A DNA stretch of 64,000 nt from assembly GCF_932294415.1 (NCBI RefSeq), contig NC_065535.1:8035001-8099000 (forward strand), given 5' to 3'. Position 1 is the first letter of the stretch; every line of letters begins with the position of its first letter. The position numbers were made by a program, and so were the translations under genes. Of the stretch, positions 862-58,370 are shown piece by piece. This stretch comes from Quercus robur (Eukaryota; Streptophyta; Magnoliopsida; Fagales; Fagaceae). The notes beneath the pieces were generated by a model. The model worked only from the letters and a program-made list of their open reading frames with translations, was not told the origin of the DNA and did no database searches.

Positions 862-2484
862 TCACTGGTGCATGTGACACATCTCGCAAGTTACATTTTC
901 CCAGGAATTGGCAAAAGTACACCGATCACAATACCAATGCTCTTCCATATAACTCTTGCCAGCTTCTTGCACCTCTGATAGGCCATTCTCTAATGCTCTA
1001 ACCAGCTTCTCAAAGTAATTTTTGGTAACTCCCGTTAAGCTCTTCAGCTTTAACTCGAACCCTTCGAAATTTACTGATCTCTCATCAGCATTAAGAAACT
1101 GCCTCACTTCCTTCTCTGCATATCCATGAAGCCTTTCAAGACCAGCCTCTGCTTCCCCTTGCAAAAACTCGAAAAGCTGCTTCTTAGCATCCTCAGCCTC
1201 AGGCAGATAGTACCCATATGCATAGGTCCACTTCAACACTCTTCTACATTCAACTATCTGTTGCCAAGCCTCCGCTATGAACCCCAGCTCAATTTGGGTT
1301 TTGCCATGTATCTCACTAAGCTGCTCAATCTGCTCGGTTTGCACTCTACCCAAGTCTGAAACAGCTTTTAGCCTTGACAAGTTATGAGCTGCCCATCTTT
1401 CATAGTAATGATTGTACTTTTGCACATGTCTCTTTGCCTCTTCTACCTCTTTTCTCTTGTCTTCCTTATAACCATTACAGTTGATATGATTATGCCAATC
1501 ACCAAGACATATCCAGCAAAACTGATAACGACAAGGTGGATGGCATGTCATATGCATACACCCCTCGTTTTTTTCAATTGGTTTTGCACACTTGGGACAA
1601 GGCTTTGTTTGAGCCAATATCCAAGTCTTGGTTTCAGACTCATCATCATTCTTTGCCATCCAATTAGCCACAGTTTCACAATCCACAGGTCGATGAGCAT
1701 CCTCAACACAATTCCAACAAAAACTAAAATCACAAGCACAAGTCACATCCCAACCTTGATTATCATCGAACTCAATTGCGTGCTCGCAACCCGGACCAGG
1801 ACACCACTTGATCTTCTTATTCTCCTCAACATAAGACCTGTACAGATAAGTCGAATACTTCTGCTTTTCCTCCTCAGAAACCAAACTATTCACCATGTCT
1901 CGATCAACAACCGCAGAACAAGACATGTCGGGGCACCTCAGCATCAAACATCCAGGACCATCGTTGATCGAAGTCCTAATATAACCTCGAAAACATTCGA
2001 CACAATAAGGATGACCACATGCGGCAGAGACAATTTCATCGCGTGTTGGGAACAAATCGAAACATATTCCACACTTGACTTCAGTACTGTCAAGTGGGAA
2101 TTCGATGATGGGTAATAAACCCAAGTTTTTTCTGACTCGATCTTCATCAGAAAACCATGCCTCGTGAACCTTAACAGCACTCCAATTATAGTGACGGAGT
2201 AAAATTGTTGCGACGGCTTTTGATACAGAGAGAACCGTGGCAACTTCTGCAATAGTGTTCTCTTGGCGTTCACGTATATCTGATTGCTTCAACACCGTGT
2301 AGTTTCGGTCTGGAGGACCTTCAAGACGAGGCCTTTTAGCAACAGGACTATCGGAATCAGAATCCATGGAATCCTCTTCTTTGATCAACGAGTCATAGTT
2401 ACAGTCGGTGTTGTTTGCATCTTCGCCGTAATAATCGTTGACCTCATTGTCGCTACCGATGTTGATCTCGTCGCCGGACTCCAT
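862..2484 (-). CDS. ARIADNE-type RBR E3 ubiquitin ligase, copy 1
   Basis: A single uninterrupted reading frame of 540 aa. RBR ligases take ubiquitin from an E2 onto their own catalytic cysteine and then pass it to the substrate. Domains in order: acidic N-terminus (1-45), a UBA-like helical segment (about 60-120), RING1 (C138/C141, C156-H158, C161/C164, C184/C189), IBR (about 210-270, ending HRPVDC), and Rcat/RING2 (C296 on). The predicted catalytic cysteine is C309 in GCMHM, aligned with the active-site cysteine of human HHARI. An Ariadne helical domain follows (about 340-505), then a C-terminal RanBP2-type zinc finger (CDRC...CEMC, 519-536). Length and order fit the Arabidopsis ARI7/ARI8 group. 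The start is the first ATG of the conserved MESGDEINI. A GTTAGGGTTTTC motif sits about 35 nt upstream in all four copies. The lack of introns is unusual for this group as I know it and suggests a retrocopy founder (inference). Confidence 0.93.
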   Translation of the reverse strand: MESGDEINIGSDNEVNDYYGEDANNTDCNYDSLIKEEDSMDSDSDSPVAKRPRLEGPPDRNYTVLKQSDIRERQENTIAEVATVLSVSKAVATILLRHYNWSAVKVHEAWFSDEDRVRKNLGLLPIIEFPLDSTEVKCGICFDLFPTRDEIVSAACGHPYCVECFRGYIRTSINDGPGCLMLRCPDMSCSAVVDRDMVNSLVSEEEKQKYSTYLYRSYVEENKKIKWCPGPGCEHAIEFDDNQGWDVTCACDFSFCWNCVEDAHRPVDCETVANWMAKNDDESETKTWILAQTKPCPKCAKPIEKNEGCMHMTCHPPCRYQFCWICLGDWHNHINCNGYKEDKRKEVEEAKRHVQKYNHYYERWAAHNLSRLKAVSDLGRVQTEQIEQLSEIHGKTQIELGFIAEAWQQIVECRRVLKWTYAYGYYLPEAEDAKKQLFEFLQGEAEAGLERLHGYAEKEVRQFLNADERSVNFEGFELKLKSLTGVTKNYFEKLVRALENGLSEVQEAGKSYMEEHWYCDRCTFANSWENVTCEMCHMHQ

Positions 2485-3728
2485 GGCTTAAAAATCAAAG
2501 CTTTGAGGGAAAATCGAAAACCCTAACAAAAGAGAGAGAGAGAGAGTAAAGGTGGGATTGTGTTTGGGTTTGGGTTTGGGTTTGTGTTTGGCCAGTTTGG
2601 GTGTGTACTTTGTTGAAGAACACTTTACTGATCAAAATGCCTTACAAAAGGAGTGAGAGATTTTCACGAAAATAGCAGCCCACTTGAAAAAGAGTTTAGA
2701 TGCTAATATACTACATATTGGTATTATCGATTACGATTCCTTTCTTAGTCCCAAAAAAGAATATTAAAAAGTCACCGGGGAAATAAAACCAACAGTAAAA
2801 GGTTAAAAATTTTATGACTACATATAAAATCACAATTTTTATCATAATTGACTATGTGTCAAATTATAAGTGGTGAAGAAAAAGTGTTGGTTTATATAAA
2901 AGTACAAACTATCAATTACAATCTGCCGTTTAGAATAATTGTGGCAAAAATTATAAACTTTTTTATATCGTACTAGAATTATATGTACAAGTCTTGTACG
3001 AAACAAAAACGTTTTACTTAAAAAAAAAAAAAAGAAAAAAAGAAAGAAAGAAAAAAGTGAAGGTATACAAAATGTTTTGAAAAAAATATTAGGGTTTATT
3101 TAAGTTTTTTTTATAAAATTATAAATAGTTGCAGATCCTACTTGCTTGAAATATATATTATTAGGTCATTTTCTATAATTTATATGATTTTGTTAACGAG
3201 TATCTTAAGATAGTTATTAACAAATTATTCTAGGAAATTTTTTATATCACTTTTATAGAAAATAGATAAAACTGTCAAAATATTAAGGTTATATTTTGTA
3301 ACAGTTTTTGTTTTCTATTTTCAAAAACTTGTTTTGGGAATATAAATAAAAAAAAAATTTCTTATATTTTTGAAATCAAAAACATATTAGGTTAGTTGAA
3401 ATTAAAAAAAAAAATGGTTTTTTGAAGAAAAAATAGAAAATACTAAAATATGTTATTACTAAAATTTGAACTCTAATACTAACTCATTAAATGAGATACA
3501 TTTATTAAATTAAATGTGTATTTTCATTGACTTTTGAAAATTATAAACAAAAAAACAGCATTTTGCATGTTTTTAGTTTCCTTTACAAATTGAGTTTTAA
3601 GAACTGGTTTTGTTTTTTTGTCCATTTTGGGTTGTCAAACAAGTTTTTTAGTTTAAAAAATAGAAAATTGTTTTTGGAAATAGAAAATAAGGAAAAAAAA
3701 AAAAAACAGTTACCAAACATACACTATT

Positions 3729-9883: not shown

Positions 9884-10747
9884 TTAGACCATGTCATTTT
9901 CTCTACGCTCTTCAATTAAGTCCAAGCTTTTCTCCAATAGCCCATCGTTGCTGCTCGGAGTGAAAGAACTTGTTCTCAGCGTAGGGAATCCAGTTTCCAA
10001 AGGAATAACAGCCTCAGCCCTATAAGTCATTGAAAGGGGCATCTCCCCAGTGGACCTACGAGGAGTAATCCGATATGTCCAAAGGACGTGTGGCAACTCT
10101 TCCACCCACTTTCCATTTGCGTCGTCCAATCTCTTTTTAAGTCCATCTACTATGACCTTATTAATAGCCTTGACCTGTCCATTTCCTTGTGGATAGGCCG
10201 GAGTGGAATATCCGTTCTTTATTCCCAGATCACAACAGTATCTTCTGAAGGCTTTACTATCAAATTAAAGTCCATTGTCCGAGATGAGGGTGTGGGGGAT
10301 TCGAAATCATGTGACAATATTTTTCCAGACAAATCTTTTGGCATCCATGTCCTTGATATTTGCTAGTGGTTCAGCTTCAACCCACTTGGTGAAATAGTCT
10401 GTGTCAACCAACAAATACCTCTTCTTCCCTGTTGCCTTAGGGAAAAGGCCTACAATATCCAACCCTCATTGAGCAAAAGGCCAAAGGCTGGATAGAGGAT
10501 TGAGGACTCCTCCTGGTTGATGAATGTCTAGTATAAATCTTTGGCATTGGCCGCACTTCTTCACATATTCCTGTGCTTCTTTGTGCATATTTGGCCACCA
10601 ATAACCTTGTGTGAGGGCCTTGTGAGATAAAAATTTGCCCCCCGTGTGGCTTCCACAAATCCCTTCATGTATTTCTTCAAAGAGTAGCTCAACTGCTTCA
10701 GGGTGTACGCATAACAGGTATAGGCCAGAGAATGATCTTTTATACAA
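9884..10747 (-). pseudogene. gypsy integrase region
   Basis: Matches plant gypsy integrase, with a zinc-binding segment (H...GYWWPNMHKEA...CGQCQRF) and downstream core remnants. Part of the element at 4,054-15,836, and broken. Confidence 0.85.
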
Positions 10748-11111
10748 CTTTTAGTCCTAGACAGCCAAAATTGAAGAGCTTTTCTCCGTATCTTGTCGGC
10801 CTCAGATTACTCTCAGGCAGGACATCTTCCTTAAGGAATAGCACAATAGGGTCCATCCAGTTAGGCCTCACCCTTATTTGATGAACATGAACCACATTCC
10901 TTTCCGCTTCAGAGGGTTTGCATAAGTCCTCCACAAGGATTACCCGAGTTAAGCTCTGTGCCAAGGAGGTTACCAGTGTAGCGAGAGAGTTTGCATGTGC
11001 ATTTCTACTTCTAGGAACTTGTGATAAAATAAAAGACTCAAATTCAGACTGTAAGTGTCTAACCTGGCTCAAATATTCCTGCATTCTAGGATCTCTTGCT
11101 TCCAGCTCTCC

Positions 11112-11969
11112 CTAGACTTGGCCTACAATCAGCCTTGAGTCAGAGAATATCTCCACTGATTTTCCACCCATTTTTTGAACCATGGTCATCCCTACCGATA
11201 GAACTTCGTACTCGGCCTCATTGTTTATGGCCGAGAATCCCAATCTCAAGGATTTCTCAATTGTGATCTTCTCTGGAGATACCAAAACTAGCCCCACCCT
11301 AAATCCTCTATGATTAACTGCACCATCAACGTAGACCTTCAAGGACAAAGACTCTTGTAAGGAGATTACACTAACCAATTTTTCATCCATGTTTTGCTCC
11401 TTTAATCTATCTTCTGATGGGGTCTTGGCAAACTCAGCCACCAAGTCGATGAGGACTTGACCCTTGACAGAGGTGCGAGGCATATATTTGATATCAAAGG
11501 CCCCTATGATCGTGCCCCATTTTGCAATTCGCCTAGTGTAGTCAATGCTCCGAAGTAGAGATCTGACCGGGAGCTAAGTCAAGACAACAATCGTGTGTGA
11601 TTGGAAATAATGGGGGAGTTTACGCGTACCATGCACCACTGCTAGAATGACCTTCTCAAGTGGTAAGTATCAGACCTTGGCTTCATGTAGTGACTTGCTC
11701 ACGTAATGGACTAGCCTCTGCACACCACTGTCAACCCGGATCAACACCAAACTTACTGCGTGGGAGGCCACTACAATGTAAGCAAACAGAACCTCGTCCA
11801 CCTCGGGCTTAGACATAATGGGTGGTCGAGAAAGGTACTCTTTCAACTGTTGGAAAGCCAGGGCACACTCTTCGGTCCATTCAAATCCCTTCCATTTGTT
11901 CAAAAACTGAAAGAAAGGCCTACACCTGTCTGCTAACCGAGAGATGAATCTATTAAGAGCAGCAGTCAT
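11112..11969 (-). pseudogene. gypsy RNase H region
   Basis: Contains the RT/RNase H connection and RNase H type sequence, including YVDGAVNHRGFRVG and the NNEAEYEVL segment seen in plant gypsy RNase H domains. Part of the broken element. Confidence 0.83.
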
Positions 11970-12008
11970 CCCAGTTAGCCTCTGGACCTTTTTGGGATTC
12001 CGAGGTGG

Positions 12009-12793
12009 TTACAGGTTGTTGATTGCCTTGATTTGGTCAGAGTTGACTTCAATTCCACAGTGTGTGACCATGTAGCCCAAGAACTTCCCTGATCCGACAC
12101 CAAATGAACATTTGGAAGCATTAAGTCGCAGTTTGTGCCTCCTCAAGATCTCAAAAATATTCCTGAGGTCATTGACGTGCTCAGATTCCAACTTGCTCTT
12201 GACTACCATGTCATCTATATAAATCTCAACGTTTTTCCCTAACTGTGGTTCAAACATCCTGGTCATCATCCTCTGGTAGGTAGACCCTGCATTCTTTAAA
12301 CCAAAAGGCATCACCTTGTAATAGTAATTCCCAATAGGGGTGACAAAAGTTGTCATCTCTTGATCATCCAAAGCTAAAGGTATCTTATGTACCCTTGAAA
12401 GGCATCCAAAAAGCTCATCCAAGGATGGCCTACCATTATGTCCACCAGCTGATCAATCTGAGGCATGGGGAAGGAGTCTATTGGACAGGCTTTATTCAAA
12501 TTCGTAAAATCTACACATACACACCACTTCCCATTCTTCTTCTTTACCACCACCGTATTAGCCAACCATTCAGGGTAGAACACCTCTTTAATAGCCCTGG
12601 CCCACTTAAGCTTCATCACCTCGTCTTTGACAGCGTTAGAATGATCTTTAGATGAGCGCCGAAGTGGTTGCTTTTTGGGGGTGATGGAGGAGTTGACGTT
12701 CAAATGATGACAGATGAAGCTTGGATCCACCCCTGAAGTTTCATAAGCATTCCAAGCGAATACGTCAAGGTTCCTCTTAAGGAATTCCACCAA
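12009..12793 (-). pseudogene. gypsy reverse transcriptase region
   Basis: Shows MPFGLKNAGSTYQR and the polymerase signature YIDDMVVKS, both typical of plant Ty3/gypsy reverse transcriptases. Part of the broken element. Confidence 0.9.
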
Positions 12794-13033
12794 CTCCTCT
12801 TTCTCTTGAGGTGGTAGCTAAGCTCCAACTTAAAAAATAAATAAATAAATAAACTTCTCTGGATCACCACTTACTGTAAATTTCTCTAAATCTTCACATT
12901 TGGCATCCTTGGCTGGCCTCTTCACGGTTAATACCAGAGACTTTGACTACAATAAGCCACCCTCAACAGAAGCCGAGGCCTTAGCTGCTGGCTGATGCAA
13001 AATTGCAAACACAAGGCGTTGCCTAGCCATTGA

Positions 13034-13450
13034 TTAATCCCCTATTAGCTCTTCAATCCGATCTCTTGACAGATACTTCACTTTCTGATGTAGAGTTGAA
13101 GAAACAGCTCCTAGGGTATGGAGCCATGGTCTGGCCACAATGGTTGTGTAGGGTGAGTATGCGTCTACCACAATGAAGTCTACTTCCACCACCTCTGAGC
13201 CAGCCTGAACGGGCATCCTAATCTGGCCTTTTGGAATAACAATTTTCCTATCAAAACTTACCAAAGGTGAATCATAGATTGTCAAATCTTCAGGCTTTAA
13301 GTTCAGCCCCTTGTATAAGTCAAGGTATATGACTTCTACACAACTGCCCTGGTCTACCATTACTCTCTTAACGTCATACCCCCCTATTCTAAGGGTAACA
13401 ACCAAAGCGTCATTATGTGGTTGGATGGTTCTAATATTGTATTCGTTCAA
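13034..13450 (-). pseudogene. gypsy protease region
   Basis: Retropepsin-like segment with VMVDQGSCVEVIYLDL at the active-site position, lying between gag and reverse transcriptase as expected. Part of the broken element. Confidence 0.75.
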
Positions 13451-13890
13451 GAAACTCAGCGGTGGTCAGACCTCTATCCTAGCTCTCTTCGGCTCGGAGT
13501 GAGAATCCTCGCACGGTAGCCTAGCTACAAACATTACCCTAGAAAGGTGAGAACCAGTTCTCCCAGGCGCAGCAAAAATGACATTGATGGTACCTAGCGG
13601 GGGCCCTGAAGGAGTATTCCCCTGAGCCACTGACCTTGATTGGTCCCCTTATCCGTTGGGCCGATACAAAAATTGTTACAATTTCCCTTCCTTGACCAGT
13701 TGCTCTAGATGGTTCCACAGTGTTCTATAGTCCTCAGTGGTATGTCCCCTCTCTTGGTGGTATTAGCAGTGAAGTCTTTGGTTGCACCTCAAAAAGTCTC
13801 TACTTATTCTGTTCGGCCACTTGAAGTATGACTCATTTTTATCTTCTTCAAAACCTGATGCACTGATTCTCTAAACACAGCGTTAATCGC

Positions 13891-14859
13891 TTAAGGAGCT
13901 GCAGGCTCAAACTGCCCAGCAAAATCCCTCTGGGGTCTGTTATTGTTGTAATGGTCCGACCTGAAATCCCTCATCTCCTGAGGGATAACCTTGCCCTTTC
14001 CTTTGCTTTGCTGTTGGTCCTCTTCAACCCTCTTATACTTGTTAATCCGATCCATGAGTTGGCGTACACTGGTAACAGGCTTCCCAGTCAAAGATTTCCT
14101 TAAGCCATGCTTGGTAAGTAGGCCGAACTTGAATGTGCTGATGGCTACATCGTCAAAATCACCATCTATCTCGTTGAACATCTCCCAATATCTGTCCAAA
14201 TATGTTTTCAAGGTTTCTCCTTCTCTCATGGATAAAGACAACAAGGAAGTTAAAGGCTGAGGAACCCTGCTGCACGTAATAAAACGGAATCCAAACATCT
14301 AAGTGAGTTCCTTGAAGGAATCAATGGAACCTGCCCTCAGACCATCAAACCACCTCATTGCCATAGGCCCCAAACTGGATAGGAATACTTTGCACATCAA
14401 GGTCTCGTTCTTGGAGCGTACAGCCATTCTTTGATTGAAGTGGCTGACATGCTCCACAGGGTCTATTCTACCATTGTACATAGTGAATGTGGGCTAAGTG
14501 AACCGCCGAGGAAGTCTTCCTCCTTCAATCCAACTCGTGAAAGGTGACCTGGAAATTAGGTTGAGTAATTTACTCATAGTGTCATTTCCCAGGCCTACCA
14601 AGGACGAATTTCTGTTTCTGGGTTCATGATGATAGTTCTCATCATATGAGAAAGACTCGCTAGAAGGAGTCCTTGATCTACGCCTATAGCTGCCATCCTC
14701 TTCACCATCGGAAGAGAAGTCAGAATTGGATGGAGCTCGCTTTCGCCGTTCATGGTGCAAGCTTCTCTTTAGGTGATCAATTTCCTTCTGCATGACTTTG
14801 GTATCTTTCTCCTGAGAGAGATGGCAACCACCCCGAGAATGGCTCTTACCAGTATGCAT
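13891..14859 (-). pseudogene. gypsy gag region
   Basis: Retrotransposon gag-type sequence (for example SFKELT and the LTSLLSLSMREGETLKTYLDRY segment) with a charged, serine-rich N-terminal side. Lies just inside the 5' LTR. Part of the broken element. Confidence 0.8.
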
Positions 14860-15018
14860 AGTACGTACACTCTCCTCCCGATCTCTCCTTTACTCAAGTT
14901 CATGGAAGTGATCTTGACATTGAGACCCCATGGATTCTGCTCGGTTTAAACCTGAACTTGCCATAGTTAAACGTCAAACTCACTATCACACCAGTAATTT
15001 TCCACAGACGGCGCCAAT

Positions 15019-17875: not shown

Positions 17876-19483
17876 TCACTGGTGCGTTTGACACATCTCG
17901 CAAGTTACGTTTTTCCAGGAATTGGCAAAAGTACACAGATCACAATTCCAATACTCTATTAAAGTTTGCACCTCTGATAGGCCATTCTCTAATGCTCTAA
18001 CCAGCTTCTCAAAGTAATTTTTAGTAATTCCCGTTAAGCTCTTCAGCTTTAACTCGAATTCTTCGAAATTTACTGATCCCTCAGGATCTTTGAGAAACTG
18101 CCTCACTTCCTTCTCAGCATATTCATGAAGCCTTTCAAGACCAGCTTCTGCTTCCCCTTGCAAAAACTCGAAAAGCAGCTTCTTAGCCTTCTCACCCCTA
18201 GGCAGATAGTACCCATATGCATAGGTCCACTTCAACACTCTTCTACATTCAACTATTTGTTGCCAAGCCTCTAATATGAACCTAAGCTGAAATTGGGTTT
18301 TGCCATAAATCTCACCAAGCTTCTCAATCTGCTCGGTTATCACCGTACGCAAGTCTGAAACAGCTTTTTGCCTTGACAAGTTATTAGCTGCCCATCTTTC
18401 ATAGTAATGATTGTATTTCTTTACATGTCTCTTTGCCTTTTTTACCTCTTTTTCCTTATCTTCCTTATAACCATTACATTTCCTATGCTTACGCCAATCA
18501 CCAAGACATATCCAGCAAAACTGATGATTACAGGGTGGATTGCATGTCATGTGCATACACCCTGCGTTTTTTTCAATTGGTTTTGCACACTTGGGACAAG
18601 GCTTTGTTTGAGCCAATATCCAAGTCTTGGTTTCAGACTCATCATGGTCCTTCCCTATCCATTTAGCCACTGTTTCGCAAACCACTGGTCGATGAGCATC
18701 CTCAACACAATTCCAACAAAAACTAAAATCACAAGCACAAGTCACATCCCAACCTTGATTATCATCGAACTCAATTGCGTACTCGCAACCCGGACCAGGA
18801 CACCACTTGATCTTCTTATTCTCCTCGACATAAGACCTGTACAGATAAGTCGAATACTTCTGCTTTTCCTCCTCAAAAACCAAACTATTCACCATATCTC
18901 GATCAACAACCGCAGAACAAGACATGTCGGGGCACCTCAGCATCAAACATCCAGGACCATCGTTGATCGAAGTCCTAATATAACCTCGAAAACATTCGAC
19001 ACAATAAGGATGACCACATGCGGCAGAGACAATTTCATCACGTGTTGGGAACAAATCGAAACATATTCCACACTTGACTTCAGTACTGTCAAGTGGGAAT
19101 TCGATGATGGGTAATAAACCCAAGTTTTTTCTGACTCGATCTTCATCAGAAAACCATGCCTCGTGAACCTTAACAGCACTCCAATTATAGTGACGGAGTA
19201 AAATTGTTGCGACGGCTTTTGATACAGAGAGAACCGTGGCAACTTCTGCAATAGTGTTCTCTTGGCGTTCACGTATATCTGATTGCTTCAACACCGTGTA
19301 GTTTCGGTCTGGAGGACCTTCAAGACGAGGCCTTTTAGCAACAGGACTATCGGAATCAGAATCCATGGAATCCTCTTCTTTGATCAACGAGTCATAGTTA
19401 CAGTCAGTGTTGTTTGCATCTTCGCCGTAATAATCGTTGACCTCATTGTCGCTACCGATGTTGATCTCGTCGCCGGACTCCAT
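17876..19483 (-). CDS. ARIADNE-type RBR E3 ubiquitin ligase, copy 2
   Basis: Single frame of 535 aa starting MESGDEINI, with the same architecture as copy 1: acidic N-terminus, UBA-like segment, RING1, IBR, Rcat with the predicted catalytic cysteine at about C309 (NAGCMHM), Ariadne domain, and a C-terminal zinc finger (CDLC...CEMC). Residues 1 to about 260 are almost identical to copy 1. From about residue 265 on it instead follows copy 3, sharing HRPVVC where copies 1 and 4 have HRPVDC, and CNHQFCW and WRKHRKC. The protein is thus a mosaic of two paralogue types. All key zinc ligands and the catalytic cysteine remain, so it is probably functional. Confidence 0.92.
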   Translation of the reverse strand: MESGDEINIGSDNEVNDYYGEDANNTDCNYDSLIKEEDSMDSDSDSPVAKRPRLEGPPDRNYTVLKQSDIRERQENTIAEVATVLSVSKAVATILLRHYNWSAVKVHEAWFSDEDRVRKNLGLLPIIEFPLDSTEVKCGICFDLFPTRDEIVSAACGHPYCVECFRGYIRTSINDGPGCLMLRCPDMSCSAVVDRDMVNSLVFEEEKQKYSTYLYRSYVEENKKIKWCPGPGCEYAIEFDDNQGWDVTCACDFSFCWNCVEDAHRPVVCETVAKWIGKDHDESETKTWILAQTKPCPKCAKPIEKNAGCMHMTCNPPCNHQFCWICLGDWRKHRKCNGYKEDKEKEVKKAKRHVKKYNHYYERWAANNLSRQKAVSDLRTVITEQIEKLGEIYGKTQFQLRFILEAWQQIVECRRVLKWTYAYGYYLPRGEKAKKLLFEFLQGEAEAGLERLHEYAEKEVRQFLKDPEGSVNFEEFELKLKSLTGITKNYFEKLVRALENGLSEVQTLIEYWNCDLCTFANSWKNVTCEMCQTHQ

Positions 19484-19966
19484 GGCTTAAAAATCAAAGC
19501 TTTGAGTGAAAATCGAAAACCCTAACAAAAGAGAGAGAGAGAGAGAGAGAAAAAGTGGGATTGTGTTTGGGTTTGGGTTTGGGTTTGTGTTTAGCCGGTT
19601 TGGGTGCTTACTTTTGTTGAAGAACAACACTTTACTGATCAAAATGCCTTACAAAAGGAGTGAGAGATTACTCCACAAAAGTAGCAGCCCAGTTGTAAAA
19701 GAGTTTAGATACTATTATACTACATTACTTATTGGTATTATCGATTATGATTCCTTTATTAGTCCAAAAAAAAAGAAAGTTAAAAAGTCACCGGGGGAAT
19801 AAAACCAACAGTAAGAGGTTAAAAATTCTTAAAAATTCTATGACTACGTATAAAATCACATTTTTTTTGTCACAATTGACTACATGTCAAAATGTGAGTG
19901 GTGACGAAAAAGGGTTACTTTATATAAAAGTACAAACTATCAATTATAATCTACCACGTAGAATAA
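19484..19966. other. 5' flank of ARI copy 2
   Basis: Matches the flank of copy 1 but with clearly more differences than the coding 5' half. Contains a GA microsatellite near 19,530-19,550 and a TTTGGGT run. No gene. Confidence 0.6.
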
Positions 19967-22674: not shown

Positions 22675-24210
22675 CTATTTGAAAGTTTGCACCTCTGATA
22701 GGCCATTCTCTAATGCTCTAACCAGCTTCTCAAAGTAATTTTTAGTAATTCCCGTTAAGCTCTTCAGCTTTAACTCGAACTCTTCGAAATTTACTGATCC
22801 CTCAGGCTCAGGATCTTTGAGAAACTGCCTCACTTCCTTCTCAGCATATCCATGAAGCCTTTCAAGACCAGCTTCTGCTTCCCCTTGCAAAAACTCGAAA
22901 AGCAGCTTCTTAGCCTTCTCACCCCTAGGCAGATAGTACCCATATGCATAGGTCCACTTCAACACTCTTCTACATTCAACTATTTGTTGCCAAGCCTCTA
23001 ATATGAACCCAAGCTGAAATTGGGTTTTGCCATAAATCTCACCAAGCTTCTCAATCTGCTCGGTTAGCACTGTACGCAAGTCTGAAACAGCTTTTTGCCT
23101 TGACAAGTTATTAGCTGCCCATCTTTCATAGTAATGATTGTATTTCTTTACATGTCTCCTTGCCTTTTTTACCTCTTTTTCCTTATCTTCCTTATAACCA
23201 TTACATTTCCTATGCTTACGCCAATCACCAAGACATATCCAGCAAAACTGATGATTACAGGGTGGATTGCATGTCATGTGCATACACCCTGCGTTTTTTT
23301 CAATTGGTTTAGCACACTTGGGACAAGGCTTTGTTTGAGCCAATATCCAAGTCTTGGTTTCAGACTCGTCATAGTTCTTCGCTATCCAATTAGCCACAGT
23401 TTCACAAACCACTGGTCGATGAGCATCCTCAACACAATTCCAACAAAAACTAAAATCACAAGCACAAGTCACATCCCAACCTTGATTATCATCGAACTCA
23501 ATTGCGTACTCGCAACCCGGACCAGGACACCACTTGATCTTCTTATTCTCCTCGACATAAGACCTGTACAGATAAGTCGAATACTTCTGCTTTTCCTCCT
23601 CAGAAACCAAGCTATTCACTATGTCTCGATCAACAACCGCAGAACAAGACATGTCGGGGCATCTCAGCATCAAAGATCCAGGACCATCGTTGATCGAAGT
23701 CCTGACATAATCTCGAAAACATTCGACACAATAAGGATGACCACATGCGGCTGAGACAATTTCTTCACGTGTTGGGAACGAATCGAAACATATTCCACAT
23801 GTGACTTCAGTACTGTCAAATGGAAATTCGATGATGGGTAATAAACCCAAGTTTTTTCTGACTCGATCTTCGTCAGAAAACCATGCCTCGTGAACCTTAC
23901 CAGCACTCCAGTTATAGTGGAGGAGCAAAACTGTTGCGACAGCTTTTGATACAGAGAGAACCGTGGCAACTTCTGCAATAGTGTTCTCTTGGCGTTCACG
24001 TATATCTGATTGCTTCAACACCGTGTAGTTTTGATCTGTAGGACCTTCAAGACGAGGCCTTTTAGCAACAGGACTATCGGAATCAGAATCCACGAAATCC
24101 TCTTCTTTGATCAACGAGTCATAGTTACAGTCAGTGTTGTTTGCATCTTCGCCGTAATAATCGTTGACCTCATTGTCGCTATAGATGTTGATCTCGTCGC
24201 CGGAATCCAT
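22675..24210 (-). CDS. ARIADNE-type RBR E3 ubiquitin ligase, copy 3, C-terminally truncated
   Basis: The open frame extends upstream to 24,408, but the conserved start MDSGDEINI is at 24,210. That gives 511 aa. RING1, IBR, Rcat with the catalytic GCMHM cysteine, and the Ariadne domain are intact. The frame stops early at SEVQTFK: after 'aactttcaaa' a TAG appears where copies 2 and 4 continue. Just downstream, about 10 nt within the zinc-finger codons are also missing, so the rest (about 22,590-22,674) is out of frame. The RanBP2-type zinc finger is therefore lost. The RBR catalytic core could still work, but any ubiquitin- or protein-binding role of that finger would be gone. Residues 265 on match copy 2 closely. 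Confidence 0.88.
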   Translation of the reverse strand: MDSGDEINIYSDNEVNDYYGEDANNTDCNYDSLIKEEDFVDSDSDSPVAKRPRLEGPTDQNYTVLKQSDIRERQENTIAEVATVLSVSKAVATVLLLHYNWSAGKVHEAWFSDEDRVRKNLGLLPIIEFPFDSTEVTCGICFDSFPTREEIVSAACGHPYCVECFRDYVRTSINDGPGSLMLRCPDMSCSAVVDRDIVNSLVSEEEKQKYSTYLYRSYVEENKKIKWCPGPGCEYAIEFDDNQGWDVTCACDFSFCWNCVEDAHRPVVCETVANWIAKNYDESETKTWILAQTKPCPKCAKPIEKNAGCMHMTCNPPCNHQFCWICLGDWRKHRKCNGYKEDKEKEVKKARRHVKKYNHYYERWAANNLSRQKAVSDLRTVLTEQIEKLGEIYGKTQFQLGFILEAWQQIVECRRVLKWTYAYGYYLPRGEKAKKLLFEFLQGEAEAGLERLHGYAEKEVRQFLKDPEPEGSVNFEEFELKLKSLTGITKNYFEKLVRALENGLSEVQTFK

Positions 24211-24585
24211 GGCTGAAAAAACAAAGCTTTGAGTGAAAATCGAAAACCCTAACAAAGAGAGAGTAAAGGTTGGTTTGTGTTTTCGATTTTTTTTTTTTTT
24301 TTGCCAAAGTGTATGGCCAGTTTGCGTGTGCTTTGTTGAAGAACACTTTTTTTTTCTTTTTCTTTTTTGGCTGAATTTGTTGAAGAACACTTTACTGATC
24401 AATATCACAAAGATAGCAATTGAATAAAAAAAGAGTTTAGATGCTAATAAGCTACATTACTTATTGGATTATTGATTATGATTCCTCTATTAGTCCAAAA
24501 AGAATAGTAAAAGGTATCCGTGGAATAAAACCAACAGTAAAAGGTCAAAAAAATTCGTAAATACGTTAAAAAATAATAATAATAA
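24211..24585. other. 5' flank of ARI copy 3
   Basis: Shares the AAAACCCTAAC motif just upstream of the ATG with the other copies but is otherwise more diverged, with extra T-rich tracts. No gene. Confidence 0.55.
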
Positions 24586-24753
24586 TGCTAGACCATTGAA
24601 ATTGACACAAATTTGTGCCACAACTTACCACGTGGCGAGTTGTGATTGGTGAAGGTGTGATAGTGAGTCATGTGAGGACACACTTTCACTAATCACAACT
24701 CGTCAGACAACAAGTTGTAACACAAAGTTATGTCAATTTCAATAGTCCTAGCA
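24586..24753. mobile_element. Foldback MITE, 168 bp
   Basis: Almost the whole element is an inverted repeat. It starts TGCTAGACCATTGAAATTGA and ends with the complement of TGCTAGGACTATTGAAATTG, and the pairing continues through CGAGTTGTGATT(A/G)GTGAA near the centre. It is absent from the same place in units 1 and 2. Class undetermined because no clear target duplication was seen. Confidence 0.75.
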
Positions 24754-25902
24754 CTACTCTAAAAAAAACCACAATTTTTGTTACAATTGTATATATGGCA
24801 AACAGTAAGCGATGGAGAAAAAGTGATGGTTTATGTGAATAGACGGTTAATCACAGTCTACAACATAAGATAATTGTAGCAAAAATTATAGATTTTTTTT
24901 TTTTAATGTTTATTAGAATTATTTGTAAGTCTTGTAAACGAAACAAACATGTTTTAGTTATTAAAAAAGAAAAAAAGAAAAAAAAAGGGAGTAAAGGTAG
25001 ACAAAATGTTCTAAAAAAAATTCTTAGGGTTTATTTAAGTTTTTCTTTTTTATTACAAATAGTTGCAGATCCCTATACTTGCCCAAAAAATATAATTATT
25101 AGGTCATTCGATATAATTTATAAGGTCTTACTAACGGTTGCCCTTAAAACAATTGTTAACAAATTATTTTAGGAAAGTTTTTACACTATTTTTAAGGAAA
25201 ATAGAAAAAACTGTTAAAACATTAATTTTTTTTTTTTTTACCCATAAAACTTTCTTAAAATGATTCACTAACAAATGACCCTAGGATATCCGTTAACATT
25301 TCTCTAATTTATATTTTGATATTTGAAAATTATGAAATACAAGAATCAAATATATTAGGATTCCTTGAATTTAATTAATTATTTATGTTATAGGAATATT
25401 TTATGTTAGTTTGGTTTTACTAAACTAATTGACCATATTTAGGTCATAATTAAACAAAAAAGTATTGCATTTAATAATTATATTGATTAACATGACTTAA
25501 GTTTCATGATATGAATGAAATTTTGGATTTGAAACCTCTTACCAACATCTTGAGATCCTAAGGGATTGCATATACCTAAGAAAATAGATACTCGAAAATG
25601 TTTGAATATATTCGTTTGTCATATTGATTGACATAATTTTTTATTATTGGAGAATTTGTTAATTTCTATTGTAAATGTTTAATTCAACCATAATTTTTTT
25701 ACTAATTTGTACACTCCAAATCAATTGAACAAATATTGCATATTACATGTAATTCTTCATCTTTATAAGGGTAAAAGGGTATTCATGGAACTAAGCTCAT
25801 TAGAAATGAGAACTTTTGCCAATCAAATTGAAAAGATTGAATTATTTACTTTGGTTTTGAATTTGTCATCCATTTTATCATTATAAAAAATGAAAGACTT
25901 TA
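24754..25902. other. Intergenic part of ARI unit between copies 3 and 4
   Basis: AT-rich, homologous to units 1 and 2, with small deletions (for example around 25,490). No gene. Confidence 0.55.
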
Positions 25903-26933
25903 AGAGTCCGTTTGGTTGAAGGGATATGAAAAAGTAGAATGATAGAAAATTAGAAGGGGATAGAAAAGTGAGAGGATATAAAAAAATTTAGTTTTCTCTC
26001 ATATATGTTTGGTTGGGGGGATGGAAAAGTAGAGAGATGGAAAATTATGAAAAATGAAGTTGATATAAATTTACAATTATGTCCCTATTAAATAAAACAA
26101 AAGACAACACAATTTTTTATACACTTATTTCAAAAAAAATTATATATGGACACTTCACTTTTTTTTTAAGTTATTATTTTATAATGCAGAAGTCGGATCC
26201 AAAACTGGTGAAAAAAAAAAAAAAATGAGGAGCTAACTATGGAAGAAATTGATAAAAACAAAAGATAGAAGAAGACAAAAAGTGAGATGAGCAAAAAAAA
26301 AAAAAAAAAAAAAAAAACCAAACAACGAAGTGAACGAACAATGAATAGAAAAAACAGAAAAATAAAAAGATGAAAAATACAAAACGAGGGGTGAAAACAA
26401 GAAGAAGAAGAAAAAGAAATAATTATTAAAAAAAATAAAAAGAAAAAAGTGATGAACAACGTGAACTAAAAAACAAGAAATATTACTAAGTTGGTTGAAG
26501 CAAAGTCAAATGCCAATGGTTACCTAAGATTTTCATGTTCAACGTTACAAAAAGAGGGGCAAAAATGTAATTGAATAGGTTGAAATAAAGTCCCCCAAGT
26601 TTCCTTTCCAAATTAGAGAGATGGGATTTTAGTGGGCCCGGTGAGAAACCTAGGCCCCACCAAAATTTCCTTCCACTCTCCCTCCCAACCAAACACCTCT
26701 CTCACCTTTTTTTTTTTTTTACATAAATGCACTTTTAGTCTCTACATTTTGAATTTTTTTCATTTTAGTCCCTATATTTTTTTTTACCACTTTTAGTCCC
26801 TAAACCAATGAACGCTCTTCATTTAAGTTCTTGAAGCACCATTCCGCCACCAAACTAACGGGGAAATTGACAAATGAATAAAATAATAAATTTTTTTCCA
26901 CGTTGGACAATAAAATAAAATTTTTTTTTTCGT

Positions 26934-27147
26934 CACCAAGTACGTATTGTCTCTTTTTTTCGTGTTTTTGCTAGCCTTTGCAATCAAGGTGTTGTCCATC
27001 TTGCCCGATGTCAAGCCTACAAGCACGAATCCCATGCTAGGTGCCTTGACTCAAACCATCATATATACTTGTCGCATGGGTTTTGCTTACTTAGTCATGC
27101 TCTCTGTCATGTCCTTCAACCTTGGAATCTTCATAGCCGCCCTGGCT
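26934..27147 (+). pseudogene. COPT/Ctr copper transporter fragment, left arm
   Basis: Translates to FFVFLLAFAIKVLSILPDV...MLGALTQTIIYT...GFAYLVMLSVMSFNLGIFIAA. This matches the second and third membrane segments of plant COPT proteins, including the MxxxM copper motif (MLSVM). The start codon, the methionine-rich N-terminus, the first membrane segment and the final GxxxG helix motif are absent. It is a captured gene piece, not a working transporter. Confidence 0.82.
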
Positions 27148-27746
27148 TCCATTTCTAACAAGTACCCGAAATATACAAAAGCATAAACCAAATTATTCAC
27201 CAACAAGCACATCCCAATATTTCCAATCATTATAAAATCCTATACCTGGAAAACAACACACACACACACAGTGAACAAAAAATAGGGAACTGTAGGGAAA
27301 ACATATAGTTCATTTGCTAATTGCTAGGATCCACTCACTCACATACCAGCTGTTTTTATAAACTAGGGACTATATTAGGTCCCAACCTCACTAGGTAAGA
27401 AAATACTTATACGGGAGAACACACTCATAATTGGTATATATATACCAAAAAACATAATGAGAATAAAAATAAAAAAATTGACAGCAAAATGAAAAGGCCA
27501 TTACAGACTTGTGTTAAAGCAGAAACAATTAGCCAATACCCCTACCCCTGTTACTACATAATTCATAGCAGACTTAGGGGAATGGTTTCAAAGTTCAAAC
27601 TCATGTTTAAGTAATATGTGGATTTTCATAGTTTGTGGGTAGGCATTAAAATTGTGATGTGTTAACAGAAAAACAGTTGCTAAAATTTCTGCTGCATTAA
27701 ATTTATGCTGCTAAAATTTCTACTGCAAATAAAACCTGCTGCATTG

Positions 27747-27783
<37 letters not shown>

Positions 27784-28164
27784 AGTAATACAAATAAAAC
27801 CTATTGCATTGAAAAAATTATGCTACATTGATTATACATATATAAGGTTATCACTTTCTACAAAACAAAGGGCATTGTTCCATAGTTAACCCTATCACCA
27901 TTACCATCACTTTCTACAAAACAAAGGATATTGTTCCATAGTTGACCCTATCACAATTACCATCACTTTCTACAAAACATTGGGTCCTAGCAATTAGCAA
28001 ATGAACTATATGTTGTCCCTGCAGTTTCCTATTTTTTGTTCACTGTGTGTGTGTGTGTGTTTCTAGGTATAGGATTTTATGAGGATTGGAAATACTAGGA
28101 TGTGTTTGTTGGTGAATAATTTGATTTATGCTTTTGTAATTTTTGGGTACCTGTTAGAAATGGA

Positions 28165-29198
28165 AGCCAGGGCGGTTATGAAGATTCCAAGGTTGAAGGA
28201 CATGACAGAGAGCATAACTAAGGGGGTGTTTGGATGGCCTGTTTCCATAATTCATAACTCAAAAATGGTGGGACCCATAGCGAGAAGTCTGTTTGGCACC
28301 ACCATCACCCTGTTTCCATAACTCTATTTCCATCACTCAATTTTCTGATTTTTGAGTGATGAGTTATGGAAACTGAAAACATATTTTAGCTGTTTTCAGT
28401 TTCCATAACTCATAACTGAATGACATTTTTGTAATTAAACACATATAGAGGACCCATTAGTCATAACTCAGCTGCACCTTTTGACCAATCTACTTTTTCT
28501 TTCTTTCTTCTCCTGGGTTCGGTCTTAGGTGTCTTCTCTTTTTTCTTTTTTTTTTTCCTGGGTTCGGTCTCAAGTGTCTTCTTTTTTTTCTTTTTCTTTT
28601 TTCCTTTCTTCTCCTGGGTTCGGTCTCAAGTGTTCTTCCTTCTTCTTCTTTTTTTTTTTTTTTCCTTCTTCTTTCACTAGGTTCAGTTTCTGGGTTCTCT
28701 TTTTTCTTTTTCTTTTTCACTGGGTTCGGTGATCTGGGTTTCTTTCTTCTTCTTCTTCTTTTTTTTTTTTTTTTTTCACTTGGTTCGAGTGATCTGGGTT
28801 TCTTCTTTCTTTTTTTTTTTCTTTTTTTTTTCCTTTCTGTTTCGGGTTTCTGGGTACTGGGGAAAAAAAAAAGCTACATTGACTGACAAGTATGGAGCCC
28901 ACAAATAGTGTGAAAAATATTGAGTGATGGTAACTAAGTGATGGTGCCAAACGGGTGTAGTATTTTAAAGTGATAAGTGATAAGTGATGAGTGATGAGTG
29001 ACGGAAATTGAGTGATGAAAAATATGCATCCAAACATAACCTAAATAAGCAAAACCCATGCGATAAGTATATATGATGGTTTGAGTCAAGGCGCCCAACA
29101 TGGGATTCGTGCTTGTAGGCTTGACATCGGGCAAGATGGACAACACCTCGATTGGCTAGCAAAAACACGAAGAAAAGAGCCAACACGTACTTGGTGAT
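28165..29198 (-). pseudogene. COPT/Ctr copper transporter fragment, right arm, split by a MITE
   Basis: Inverted copy of the left-arm fragment, on the minus strand in two parts (29,045-29,198 and 28,165-28,221) separated by the MITE at 28,222-29,041. It begins TKYVLALFFVFLLA and is slightly different from the left arm, with a small deletion after FLLA. Confidence 0.8.
28222..29041. mobile_element. PIF/Harbinger-like MITE nested in the right arm
   Basis: 820 bp with TAA on both sides (28,219-28,221 and 29,042-29,044). The left arm supplies the unoccupied version ('actaagtaagc'). Ends GGGGGTGTTTGGATGG and (rev. comp.) GGTTATGTTTGGATGC. The interior is CT/TTC-rich, with subterminal 'gagtgatg' repeats. 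Non-coding. Confidence 0.85.
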
Positions 29199-29634
29199 GG
29201 AAAAAAAATTATTATTTTATTGTCCAATGTGGAAAAAAAATTATTATTTTATTCATTTGTCAGTTTCCCCGTTAGTTTGGCGACGGAATGGTGCTTTAAG
29301 GACTTAAATGAAGAGCGTTAATTGGTTTAGGGACTAAAAGTAGTAAAAATAAAATGTAGAAACTAAAATGGAAAAAAGTCAAAATGTAGGGACAAAAAGT
29401 GCATTTACGCCTTTTTTTTTTCACCCTTCCTATTTCACCTCCAACCAAACGAAGCTTAAAAGTAAAGTTGTTTAAGAATGACTTCATGTGGCCAAAGTGA
29501 GACTAGAGTGTACCTTTTATGGTCCTTTGTATTGGAGTTGTAAAGTACGAAGTTTTTTCTTGTACTATTCTATGATTGAATGTGTTTAATCAGTGTAAAA
29601 TATTTTCACTAGGTGAAAATATATTTTTTTTATC

Positions 29635-30714: not shown

Positions 30715-32319
30715 TCACAGGTGCATTTGACACATCTCGCAAGTTACGTTTTCCCAGGAATTGGCAAAAGTACACAGATCACAATTCCAATACTCGAAAG
30801 TTTGCACCTCTGATAGGCCATTCTCTAATGCTCTAACCAACTTCTCAAAGTAATTTTTAGTAATTCCGGTTAAGCTCTTCAGCTTTAGCTCGAACTCTTC
30901 GAAATTTACTGATCCCTCAGGCTCAGGATCTTTGAGAAACTGCCTCACTTCCTTCTCAGCATATCCATGAAGCCTTTCAAGACCAGCTTCTGCTTCCCCT
31001 TGCAAAAACTCGAAAAGCCGCTTCTTAGCCTTCTCATCCTCAGGCAGATAGTACCCATATGCATAGGTCCACTTCAACACTCTTCTACATTCAACTATTT
31101 GTTGCCAAGCCTCTAATATGAACCCAAGCTGAAATTGGGTTTTGTCATGCATCTCACTAAGCTCCTCAATCTGCTTGGTTATCACTGTACGCAAGGTTGA
31201 AACAGCTTTTTGCCTTGACAAGTTATTAGCTGCCCATCTTTCATAGTAATGATTGTATTTCTTTATATCTCTCTTTGCCTTTTCTACCTCTTTTTTCTTA
31301 TCTTCCTTATAACCATTACAGTTCCAATGATTATCCAAATCACCAAGACATATCCAGCAAAACTCATAATTACAAGGTGGATTGCATGTCATGTGCATAC
31401 ACCCTCCTTTTTTTTCAATTGGTCTTGCACACTTGGGACAAGGCTTTGTTTTAGCCAATATCCAATTCATGGTTTCAGATTCATCATGGTCCTTCGCTAT
31501 CCAATTAGCCACAGTTTCACAATCCACAGGTCGATGAGCATCCTCAACACAATTCCAACAGAACATAAAACCACAAGTACAAGTCACGTCCCAACCATGA
31601 TTATCATCGAACTCAATAGCGTACTCACATCCCGGACCAGGACACCACTTGATCTTCTTGTTCTCCTCGACAAAAGACCTATAAAGATAGGTCGAATACT
31701 TATTCTTTTCCTCGTCCAAAACTAACTTATTAACCATGTCTCCATCTATAGCCGCACAACAAGTCATGTCGGGGCATCTCAGAATCAAACATCCAGGACC
31801 ATCGTTGATAGAAGTGCTAATATAATATCGAAAGCATTCGATACAATAAGGATGACCACATGCGGCTGAGACAATTTCATCACGTGGAAACAAATCGAAA
31901 CATATTCCACACATGATTTCACTGTCACATGGAATTTCGATGATGGGTTTATCAAATAAGCCCAGGTTTTTTCTGACTCGATCTTCGTCAGCAAACCATG
32001 CCTCGTGAACCTTACTAACACTCCAATTATAGTGACGGAGTAAAACTGTTGCGGCGGCTTCTGATACCGAGAGAATCGTGGCAACTTCGGCAATAGTGTT
32101 CTCTTGGCGTTCACGTATATCTGATTGCTTCAACACAGTGTAGTTTTGGTCTTTAGGCCCTTCAAGACGAGTCTTTTTAGTATAAGAATCATCGGAATCC
32201 ATAGAGTCCTCTTCCATGATCAAGGAGTCATAGTTGCAGTCAGTGTTGTTTGCATCTTCGCCGTCATAATCGTTGACTTCATTGTCACTATAGATGTTGA
32301 TTTCATCGCCGGAGTCCAT
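30715..32319 (-). CDS. ARIADNE-type RBR E3 ubiquitin ligase, copy 4
   Basis: The frame opens upstream at 32,346, but the conserved start is MDSGDEINI at 32,319, giving 534 aa. Complete architecture: acidic N-terminus, UBA-like segment, RING1 (CGICFDLF), IBR ending HRPVDC, Rcat with predicted catalytic cysteine at about 307 (GGCMHM), Ariadne domain, and C-terminal zinc finger (CDLC...CEMC). This is the most diverged member of the array, with many replacements and small indels in the N-terminal 150 residues. It probably represents an older branch. All zinc ligands I checked are present. Confidence 0.92.
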   Translation of the reverse strand: MDSGDEINIYSDNEVNDYDGEDANNTDCNYDSLIMEEDSMDSDDSYTKKTRLEGPKDQNYTVLKQSDIRERQENTIAEVATILSVSEAAATVLLRHYNWSVSKVHEAWFADEDRVRKNLGLFDKPIIEIPCDSEIMCGICFDLFPRDEIVSAACGHPYCIECFRYYISTSINDGPGCLILRCPDMTCCAAIDGDMVNKLVLDEEKNKYSTYLYRSFVEENKKIKWCPGPGCEYAIEFDDNHGWDVTCTCGFMFCWNCVEDAHRPVDCETVANWIAKDHDESETMNWILAKTKPCPKCARPIEKKGGCMHMTCNPPCNYEFCWICLGDLDNHWNCNGYKEDKKKEVEKAKRDIKKYNHYYERWAANNLSRQKAVSTLRTVITKQIEELSEMHDKTQFQLGFILEAWQQIVECRRVLKWTYAYGYYLPEDEKAKKRLFEFLQGEAEAGLERLHGYAEKEVRQFLKDPEPEGSVNFEEFELKLKSLTGITKNYFEKLVRALENGLSEVQTFEYWNCDLCTFANSWENVTCEMCQMHL

Positions 32320-33254
32320 GGCCGAGAAAACAAAGTAAAAATACACTAGAGCGAGATAGAAAACCCTAATAAGATATCCCTTAAGCGAAGTGTTTAAATA
32401 CGATTAGGATTATGATTCCTTCACTAGTCAAAACAGAATAGTAAAAGGTTAGATAAGGTATAAAAATAAATAAATAAATAAGGAGAATTACACTATTTAA
32501 AAAAAATAATAATAATAATAATGGAGAAGAATTACACCGTTGATTTGCAATATTGGTCTTTTTTGAAGTTTAAATAGAGAGCACTATTTGAGCCTTATGT
32601 TGACTTCGATTAGTTTATTTACTTACCTATGTTTAACAGAAAAATGATACGGTAATTTTTAAAAATTATTTTAAAAAATTACACTTAAGCATAGGTCTAA
32701 CCTGACCCAAATAAATGGGTTTTTCCCTTCTTCTCAATTTGCTTGGCATACCCAACACTAACAACGCAACCCATCTCTGAAACTCAAATTTTAAAATCTG
32801 ACCTGGATATTGGTTCATGTCTTTCAACTTTCTTTAAACAATATTTAATGAACCGTTGATATTGAGAAAGTCTTAAAATAGAAAGAAAAAAATTAATGAA
32901 ATTCGTCACAGCTCATTAGTCTCCTTTCTAAAACCTTATCTTAACCTTTTCTTGCACTTTCCTACACTTTCCTATTATGAAATTGAAACAATGATAAGCG
33001 AAGTGAACCCCAAAAATTTTAACTTGAAGGATTTGAAAATTTGAATTTTATAATTTGAAAGATTTGAAAAGCTAAATAGAGGTTTGCAATTTGAAATCGG
33101 ACTTGGTTTAGGTCCAATGCATCTAGTGCACTGGACCAGATCAAATAGTGACACGTGTCCAAAAGTGGACATACGTCATCATCTCAACAGATCTAGTATT
33201 ACTGACACTGGACCTAAGTCTGACCCTCTGAAATCAGTTCTCATTTAAAGCTTA
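32320..33254. other. Upstream of ARI copy 4; no gene
   Basis: AT-rich. The conserved AAAACCCTAAT motif sits 40-50 nt upstream of the ATG. Similarity to the other units fades quickly, so the array probably ends here. Contains one small inverted-repeat element (33,108-33,217). Confidence 0.55.
33108..33217. repeat. Small inverted-repeat element
   Basis: 110 bp beginning TTAGGTCCAATGC and ending ACACTGGACCTAA, that is, with inverted ends TTAGGTCCA. Probably a short MITE. The target duplication is unclear. Confidence 0.45.
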
Positions 33255-34445: not shown

Positions 34446-34591
<146 letters not shown>

Positions 34592-56954: not shown

Positions 56955-57521
56955 TCATAAGGGTATTATCTGTGATCGATTAGGAAATCTAAGTTGAAGT
57001 TTTACGTGGTAAGTTGATGCATCCACATCAGTTGGTAATTGGGTATGATCAGCCTGTGCAAAAACAGCAAACCCACGTGCAAAAGCAAAAGACCCAGTTC
57101 CACCTACCACAGTGAGTTCTTCTCTGTCCTTATGAGCAACATGCTTGGCCTCAACACTAAGGCTACCTGAATACTCTTTAGTGTCAAAGCTCAGATATAT
57201 GATATTGAAAGCCGAGTGTGCAAACTGTTCCACAGGAACTATGAAGCCCTGGGCTTTTCCCACAACCCTGGAAGTGTTTTCTGGTCCCTCTGTTAGCATA
57301 TGGTGGAAAATAAAGGCTTCAGCATCATCTGATTTTGTCACGGGTTGAGTGTTGGAGCTAGCAACTTGTGGTTGTTGTATGTACAAAGACAAGGCTAGCC
57401 AAGGTGGTTTTGTGTTATTCTTTGATGGCTTTTTGTGGGACATGGGAGAGAGCAAAGCCAAGAGAATGACTGCCAGTATGGCTAAGGAAACTGTTGTGCA
57501 AAATATGACTCTAGGAAGCAT
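56955..57521 (-). CDS. Dirigent-domain protein, intronless, 188 aa
   Basis: Dirigent proteins are secreted beta-barrels that steer stereoselective coupling of phenolic radicals, in lignan or related wall chemistry. Residues 5-26 form a hydrophobic signal peptide or anchor (VIFCTTVSLAILAVILLALL). A variable linker follows (27-68), then the dirigent motifs FIFHH (70-74), LTEGPENTSRVVGKAQG (76-92), a strand region (AFNIIYLSFDTKEYSGSLSVEA), and VVGGTGSFAFARG (138-150). N-glycosylation sequons: N35, N82 and N181. The segment of about 35 residues that in typical dirigents separates FYFHD from the DDxLTEGP motif is absent. FIFHH runs straight into the LTEGP block, as I recall from the DIR17-like branch. 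Catalytic-site residues of that missing part are therefore not present. A lone single-exon gene. Confidence 0.85.
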   Translation of the reverse strand: MLPRVIFCTTVSLAILAVILLALLSPMSHKKPSKNNTKPPWLALSLYIQQPQVASSNTQPVTKSDDAEAFIFHHMLTEGPENTSRVVGKAQGFIVPVEQFAHSAFNIIYLSFDTKEYSGSLSVEAKHVAHKDREELTVVGGTGSFAFARGFAVFAQADHTQLPTDVDASTYHVKLQLRFPNRSQIIPL

Positions 57522-58370
57522 CTTGCACCAACGAGATTGGAGTTGGGGTTTGAATTTGGTTTCTATAAGATCACTTTAATACTTCAATAGGTGAGATAAA
57601 CTTGCTCCTCATTGTTAATGGTTTTGGCCACCTAATCCACTCTTCCAATACCAAAACTGGTAAACCTAAACCAATTATGAATCTGCATGCTTTCCTGAAG
57701 AGTTAGTGGAACCTTATGGCTAAAATCCAAAATGTGGATCTCGAATGCACATATTTTGAGATGCATAAATCATATCTTCTCATTTTTTGCCCATTAGAGA
57801 AGAACAAAACAAAACCTCACCTTAAAAGAAATCTCTTCCTCATTATACTACCTTTGAATTCAGGGCACAAACATTTATGTTGGGATTCTCCACAGACAGA
57901 GCAAGTGTGCATTCTTGAGATTCCCCAGCACCTAAGAACAAATTAAAGATTAGCGTAAAATAATAATATAAAAAAATGGTCTTCCCCCTTCATATACACT
58001 GCATATGTGATGTATAATTTTTTGAAAAGACTAACCTCAAGTGATCAATTGAATGGACTGATATGGTTAATCACTTTGCCCCTAGCAAAATCAAACATCA
58101 TGTAGAAAAGATGATCCAAAGTCATGGAAGAAAGCAGCATTGAGACAATGGATGCATTTATCTATGAAAGTATGCCAATAGGCTATATATACACTTTATT
58201 TTTTGGTGCCAAAATCCTAGCAAGGTAACACCTCGGAATTGCTGAATGAACACAAGGCTATACAAGCCATTTGCATGCCTTATTGATACACAAAGACTTC
58301 AAAGCACAAGATATTTGACACAAACATTTTACAGTTCACAACTTATAATGAAATATAAAACGGCAGCATC
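57522..58370. other. Dirigent 5' flank; no gene
   Basis: Presumed promoter region. I see no motif I can name with confidence. Confidence 0.4.

Follow-up and report, generated by a model that had tools for sequence, protein, structure and literature searches.

Pack-MULEs and Pack-TYPE elements resemble the locus described here in that they are TIR-type elements, apparently non-autonomous, whose host gene fragment is richer in GC than the TIRs (parts of PMC8903248 and PMC4858842). In those elements the fragment lies once between the TIRs, whereas in our locus each arm carries a copy, the two facing each other, within a putative member of the Mutator group. The Mu killer locus of maize, like ours, holds two copies of one TIR region together with an inverted duplication of a neighbouring coding piece, and a hairpin transcript has been proposed for it (parts of PMC3440606). 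Rice inverted pseudogene pairs are also alike, with facing fragments, a potential stem of more than 100 bp and a loop of less than 2 kb, and two such pairs meet a small-RNA density cut-off (parts of PMC2708354). Our locus, known from its sequence alone, differs from both: its duplicated piece comes from a host gene, whereas Mu killer duplicates part of the mudrA transposase and silences MuDR, and, unlike the rice pairs, it sits in a transposable element. Mapped small RNAs are on record for the two rice pairs. MULEs with multiple long TIRs have rearranged TIR regions as well, some with gene fragments, but 48 of the 61 have their TIRs in tandem, and long inverted arms that include a captured gene, as seems to be the case here, are not described for them in the parts of PMC3310237 that we used. 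A literature search with the TIR strings of our element returned nothing relevant by title, and the sole match to COPT together with Pack-MULE was an orchid LTR study. Events of this sort are known already, and the locus is a neat instance of one.

Results

An inverted repeat with a copper-transporter gene fragment in each arm

The window is the whole stretch of 64,000 nucleotides of Quercus robur DNA that was analyzed; within it, the region of the repeat was compared by BLASTN with its own reverse complement. Positions 26721–29411 form a long imperfect inverted repeat with arms of about 610 bp and a loop of 646 bp, composed of the following features:

26721–27334, plus strand: left arm
26721–26931, plus strand: outer TIR part of the left arm; 28% GC; three TTTTAGTCYCTA repeats at 26733, 26763 and 26791
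26932–27150, plus strand: captured COPT/Ctr fragment of the left arm, from a TM1-like stretch to part of TM3; 46% GC; Pfam PF04145
27151–27334, plus strand: inner part of the left arm outside the COPT fragment, about 180 bp
27335–27980, no strand: loop between the arms; 56-bp direct repeat (27850–27961) and an A run
27981–29411, minus strand: right arm, split by an 820-bp insert
27981–28221, minus strand: right-arm inner part, followed by the 3′ half of COPT copy 2
29042–29411, minus strand: 5′ half of COPT copy 2, out of frame through a 5-bp deletion, followed by the right-arm outer TIR part

The arms were recovered as two BLASTN blocks, one pairing 26724–27094 with 29041–29407 (337/372 identities, 90.6%, E = 3e-147) and the other pairing 27090–27333 with 27981–28222 (225/244, 92.2%, E = 2e-98). 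Chance similarity was ruled out by a control of 50 dinucleotide shuffles of the element, in which the best inverted match reached 30.1 bits compared to the 510 and 348 bits observed. In a self-BLAST of the whole window, at E values up to 1e-10 and with at least 100 alignment columns, the sole other inverted match is a 174-bp self-palindrome at 24583–24756, just upstream of an ARIADNE-type gene; it is 75% identical to its own reverse complement and is perhaps a small MITE.

When the arms were aligned with exact borders, leaving out the nested insert and one of its TSD copies, 558 of the 605 compared bases were identical (92.2%). The arms differ by 47 substitutions (36 transitions and 11 transversions) and 4 internal gaps, with 1 further gap at the end. 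The inverted copies announced by the initial annotation are thus present, but its figure of about 96% is too high, even for the COPT part. Identity amounts to 190/210 (90.5%) in the outer part, 202/214 (94.4%) in the COPT part and 166/181 (91.7%) in the inner part (chi-square p = 0.31); divergence is about equal in the three parts, as expected if they were duplicated jointly. Exact 21-mers common to both arms are 85 of 592 overall, and 57 of the 199 in the left COPT copy occur in the right arm.

From the outside in, GC content of the left arm changes from 28% (TIR) to 46% (COPT) and then to 33% (inner part), and these steps fit a foreign insert. The corresponding values are 28% and 30% for the outer TIR part on the left and right, and 33–35% for the inner part. 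The outermost TIR bases of the two element ends are unlike each other. Together, the BLASTN blocks, the Pfam Ctr match detailed below and the exact-border alignment support the earlier description of a TIR-type element with a COPT piece in both arms.

Identity and state of the COPT fragment

The COPT frame of the left arm is open from 26932 to 27183 and ends at a TAA stop (27184–27186). Pfam Ctr (PF04145) matches its residues 33–72 (8.6e-9; 36.5 bits against a cut-off of 25.3). An MxxxM motif in TM2 and a GxxxG motif in TM3 mark the COPT/Ctr family; the first is found as MLSVM at residues 56–60, while GxxxG is absent anywhere in the left frame, as is the N-terminal part. No in-frame ATG lies between the in-frame stop at 26911 and the frame, whose first methionine is residue 35. 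Since it lacks GxxxG, a start codon and the N-terminal part, this is a fragment and not a gene. Its end at about 27150, which gives it a length of about 220 bp, was set by the Pfam match and GC content.

Hydrophobic windows showed residues 1–28 to be strongly hydrophobic, and residues 2–23 are helical in a single-sequence structure model of modest quality (mean pLDDT 77.5, pTM 0.51). This stretch presumably resembles TM1 of COPT proteins, and the piece therefore seems to span the TM1 region as well. The fragment had been described as TM2–TM3 with MxxxM; the Ctr match and MLSVM bear out its nature, while its extent has to be widened by the TM1-like stretch. A PDB sequence search with the fragment gave no match. 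A PDB fold search with the model gave 43 matches at E values up to 10, none at 0.001 or below and none described as a copper transporter, an outcome that neither helps nor harms the Ctr call.

In the right copy, the frame is lost through the 5-bp deletion, and the nested insert breaks this copy in two. The 3′ end of each copy faces the loop; the arrangement is therefore tail-to-tail (convergent) and not head-to-head as first annotated. In a transcript across the element, one of the copies would consequently be sense and its partner antisense.

We then counted the differences between the copies by codon position. They are distributed 6/3/6 over the whole open frame (binomial p = 0.59) and 5/1/6 over the COPT part alone, where positions 1 and 2 account for 6 of the 12 changes (p = 0.23). 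Neither comparison gives a significant signal that the COPT frame is under purifying selection; in the 5/1/6 count, changes at positions 1 and 2 are slightly underrepresented, which is not significant with n = 12 changes. As codon-position counts are blind to selection on a hairpin, the absent signal concerns the protein alone.

Folding of a predicted transcript

A 2701-base RNA was folded in silico in both orientations. Predicted energies were −1252 kcal/mol for the plus strand and −1222 kcal/mol for the minus strand, against −599 ± 12 kcal/mol in 20 shuffles of the plus strand, with which the minus strand was also compared. With G-U pairs counted, the plus-strand fold contains 575 arm-to-arm pairs in 26 helices, 13 of them uninterrupted over at least 21 pairs and the longest reaching 64. 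The predicted structure is a long stem, often mismatched and interrupted by a bulge of 820 bases. That a transcript would fold into a hairpin, as the initial annotation had proposed, is thus upheld by the predictions for both strands. An Rfam scan of the whole window at gathering score gave no match.

Insertion history of the locus

The inverted repeat lies within a series of MITE-like insertions, the outer and second of which are read from the sequence:

25908–29455, no strand: outer MITE-like block holding everything else; hAT-type by TSD length and ends
25900–25907 and 29456–29463: TSD of the outer block, TTAAGAGT and TTAAAAGT; 7/8 match, TTAARAGT
26003–26697, no strand: second MITE-like insert with similar TGTTTGGTTGG ends
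25995–26002 and 26698–26705: TSD of the second insert, TCTCTCAT and TCTCTCAC; 7/8 match, TCTCTCAY
28222–29041, no strand: nested MITE-like insert in the right arm, 820 bp; TSD TAA at 28219–28221 and 29042–29044; ends GG...TGTTTGGATG

Four consecutive genes or gene copies for ARIADNE-type RBR E3 ligases lie on the minus strand of the window (865–2487, 17879–19486, 22678–24456 and 30718–32403), all four with IBR, Ariadne and UBA_ARI1 domains and long open frames. The spacers of two sister ARI genes served as empty-site controls. The outer block is missing from both of them (2/2 examined): the sequences that border it at 25.9 kb and 29.46 kb adjoin each other there, at about 16649 and about 21216.

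The COPT element is flanked by T runs on both sides (14 T at 26707–26720 and 10 T at 29412–29421). With such flanks, the sequence would accommodate a 9-bp TSD, but this is uninformative. The element was probably inserted separately into the outer MITE; alternatively, the outer MITE-like block could have brought it along. The nested 820-bp insert, which we take to be a PIF/Tourist-like MITE by class, was inserted after the inverted repeat had formed. Frames of at least 120 aa (stop to stop) that overlap the element are two, both of low complexity and both in the nested MITE; among the shorter ones, the COPT frame was the one scanned for domains.

The window has further features. A fragmented LTR retrotransposon lies between two ARI copies on the minus strand (about 9884–14889), with a reverse transcriptase match (PF00078, 1.7e-22) at 12012–12452; its frames at 9887–10264 and 13894–14298 look integrase- and gag-like by eye, with no Pfam match. 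A dirigent-like protein frame is found at 56958–57575 on the minus strand (PF03018, 4.3e-21), and a 140-bp CT microsatellite at 34448–34587 is translated as repeated LS residues in a program-made ORF.

Discussion

We interpret the locus as a non-autonomous, probably Mutator-like, gene-capturing element whose COPT-bearing half was inversely duplicated, which was inserted in a MITE and which is now decaying; we give this reading a probability of about 70%. Within it, the Mutator-like superfamily is the most likely assignment because the TIRs are long, about 210 bp for the outer part and about 610 bp when the captured piece is included. MULEs are said to differ from other DNA transposons by their long TIRs (parts of PMC3310237), and maize Mu elements have TIRs of about 220 bp and TSDs of 9 bp (parts of PMC3276141). 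The same capture and inversion might instead have taken place in a fold-back element or another TIR element, e.g., a hAT-like one, or in what would be the inner part of the outer MITE-like block. The T runs, which would mask any TSD, the unconserved outer TIR bases and the surrounding MITE-like inserts with their 8-bp TSDs all leave room for this, but a TIR length of at least about 210 bp agrees with Mutator-like elements according to the same two sources, and we regard such an origin as possible, if on the unlikely side. An assembly artefact, that is, a fold-back read or a haplotype misjoin, is hardly credible. Chimeric reads can produce inverted duplications, but the arms of a chimera would be nearly identical, whereas those observed here are separated by the 47 substitutions and 4 internal gaps, and one of them has a TAA-flanked insert of its own.

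The locus might also be an active small-RNA locus, a young MIR-like or hairpin-siRNA gene by which a COPT gene of the host is downregulated in trans. The strong predicted fold, with its 13 helices of at least 21 pairs and up to 64 (G-U pairs counted), is what such a locus would offer, and there are precedents: inverted duplication of a target gene is a standing model for new MIR genes (parts of PMC10004981), next to the rice inverted pseudogene pairs and Mu killer. The idea of COPT silencing thus has good precedents in other systems. Against it stand the selection signal, which is not significant, the 820-bp insert that splits one arm, and the small share of exact 21-mers in the COPT part. Moreover, the rice pair described in detail is without small RNAs from its parental gene, as presented in parts of PMC2708354. 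Mu killer also calls for caution: plants in which MuDR is silenced by it have two short antisense transcripts, while its sense transcripts from read-through accompany failure to silence, a pattern that warns against a simple hairpin model (parts of PMC3440606). On balance we consider present activity in trans improbable. That a transposon-made hairpin with TIRs as promoters is becoming a small-RNA gene which tunes copper uptake via a resident COPT gene seems to us more improbable still.

Returning to the decaying Mutator-like element, three observations suggest an element in decay more than a maintained silencer: selection on the frame gives no significant signal, a MITE has split one arm, and exact COPT 21-mers are few. 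Capture followed by inversion is the route we infer. A non-autonomous class II element would have acquired, beside one of its TIRs, a piece of about 220 bp from a plant COPT gene. This half, made of the TIR, the COPT piece and about 180 bp, may then have been duplicated inversely, perhaps via template switching during gap repair. The resulting element would have been inserted into a T run within the MITE between the tandem ARIADNE-type genes; later, a PIF/Tourist-like MITE would have hit the right arm, and the arms would have drifted to about 8% divergence. Transcription, if any, may start from TIR promoters or come from read-through of a neighbour, and would yield a long hairpin in which a sense COPT copy is followed or preceded by an antisense one. 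Transcription of the element and small RNAs from its arms are conjectural; the likeliest fate of a hairpin RNA would be processing into small RNAs that direct methylation of the element in cis.

The locus unites two steps through which small-RNA genes of plants are proposed to arise, namely transposon gene capture and the duplication of a gene piece in inverse orientation. If the arms gave no small RNAs, it would be one more case of element decay. If they did give small RNAs, the locus would illustrate how a regulator of a host nutrient gene can be made by a transposon.
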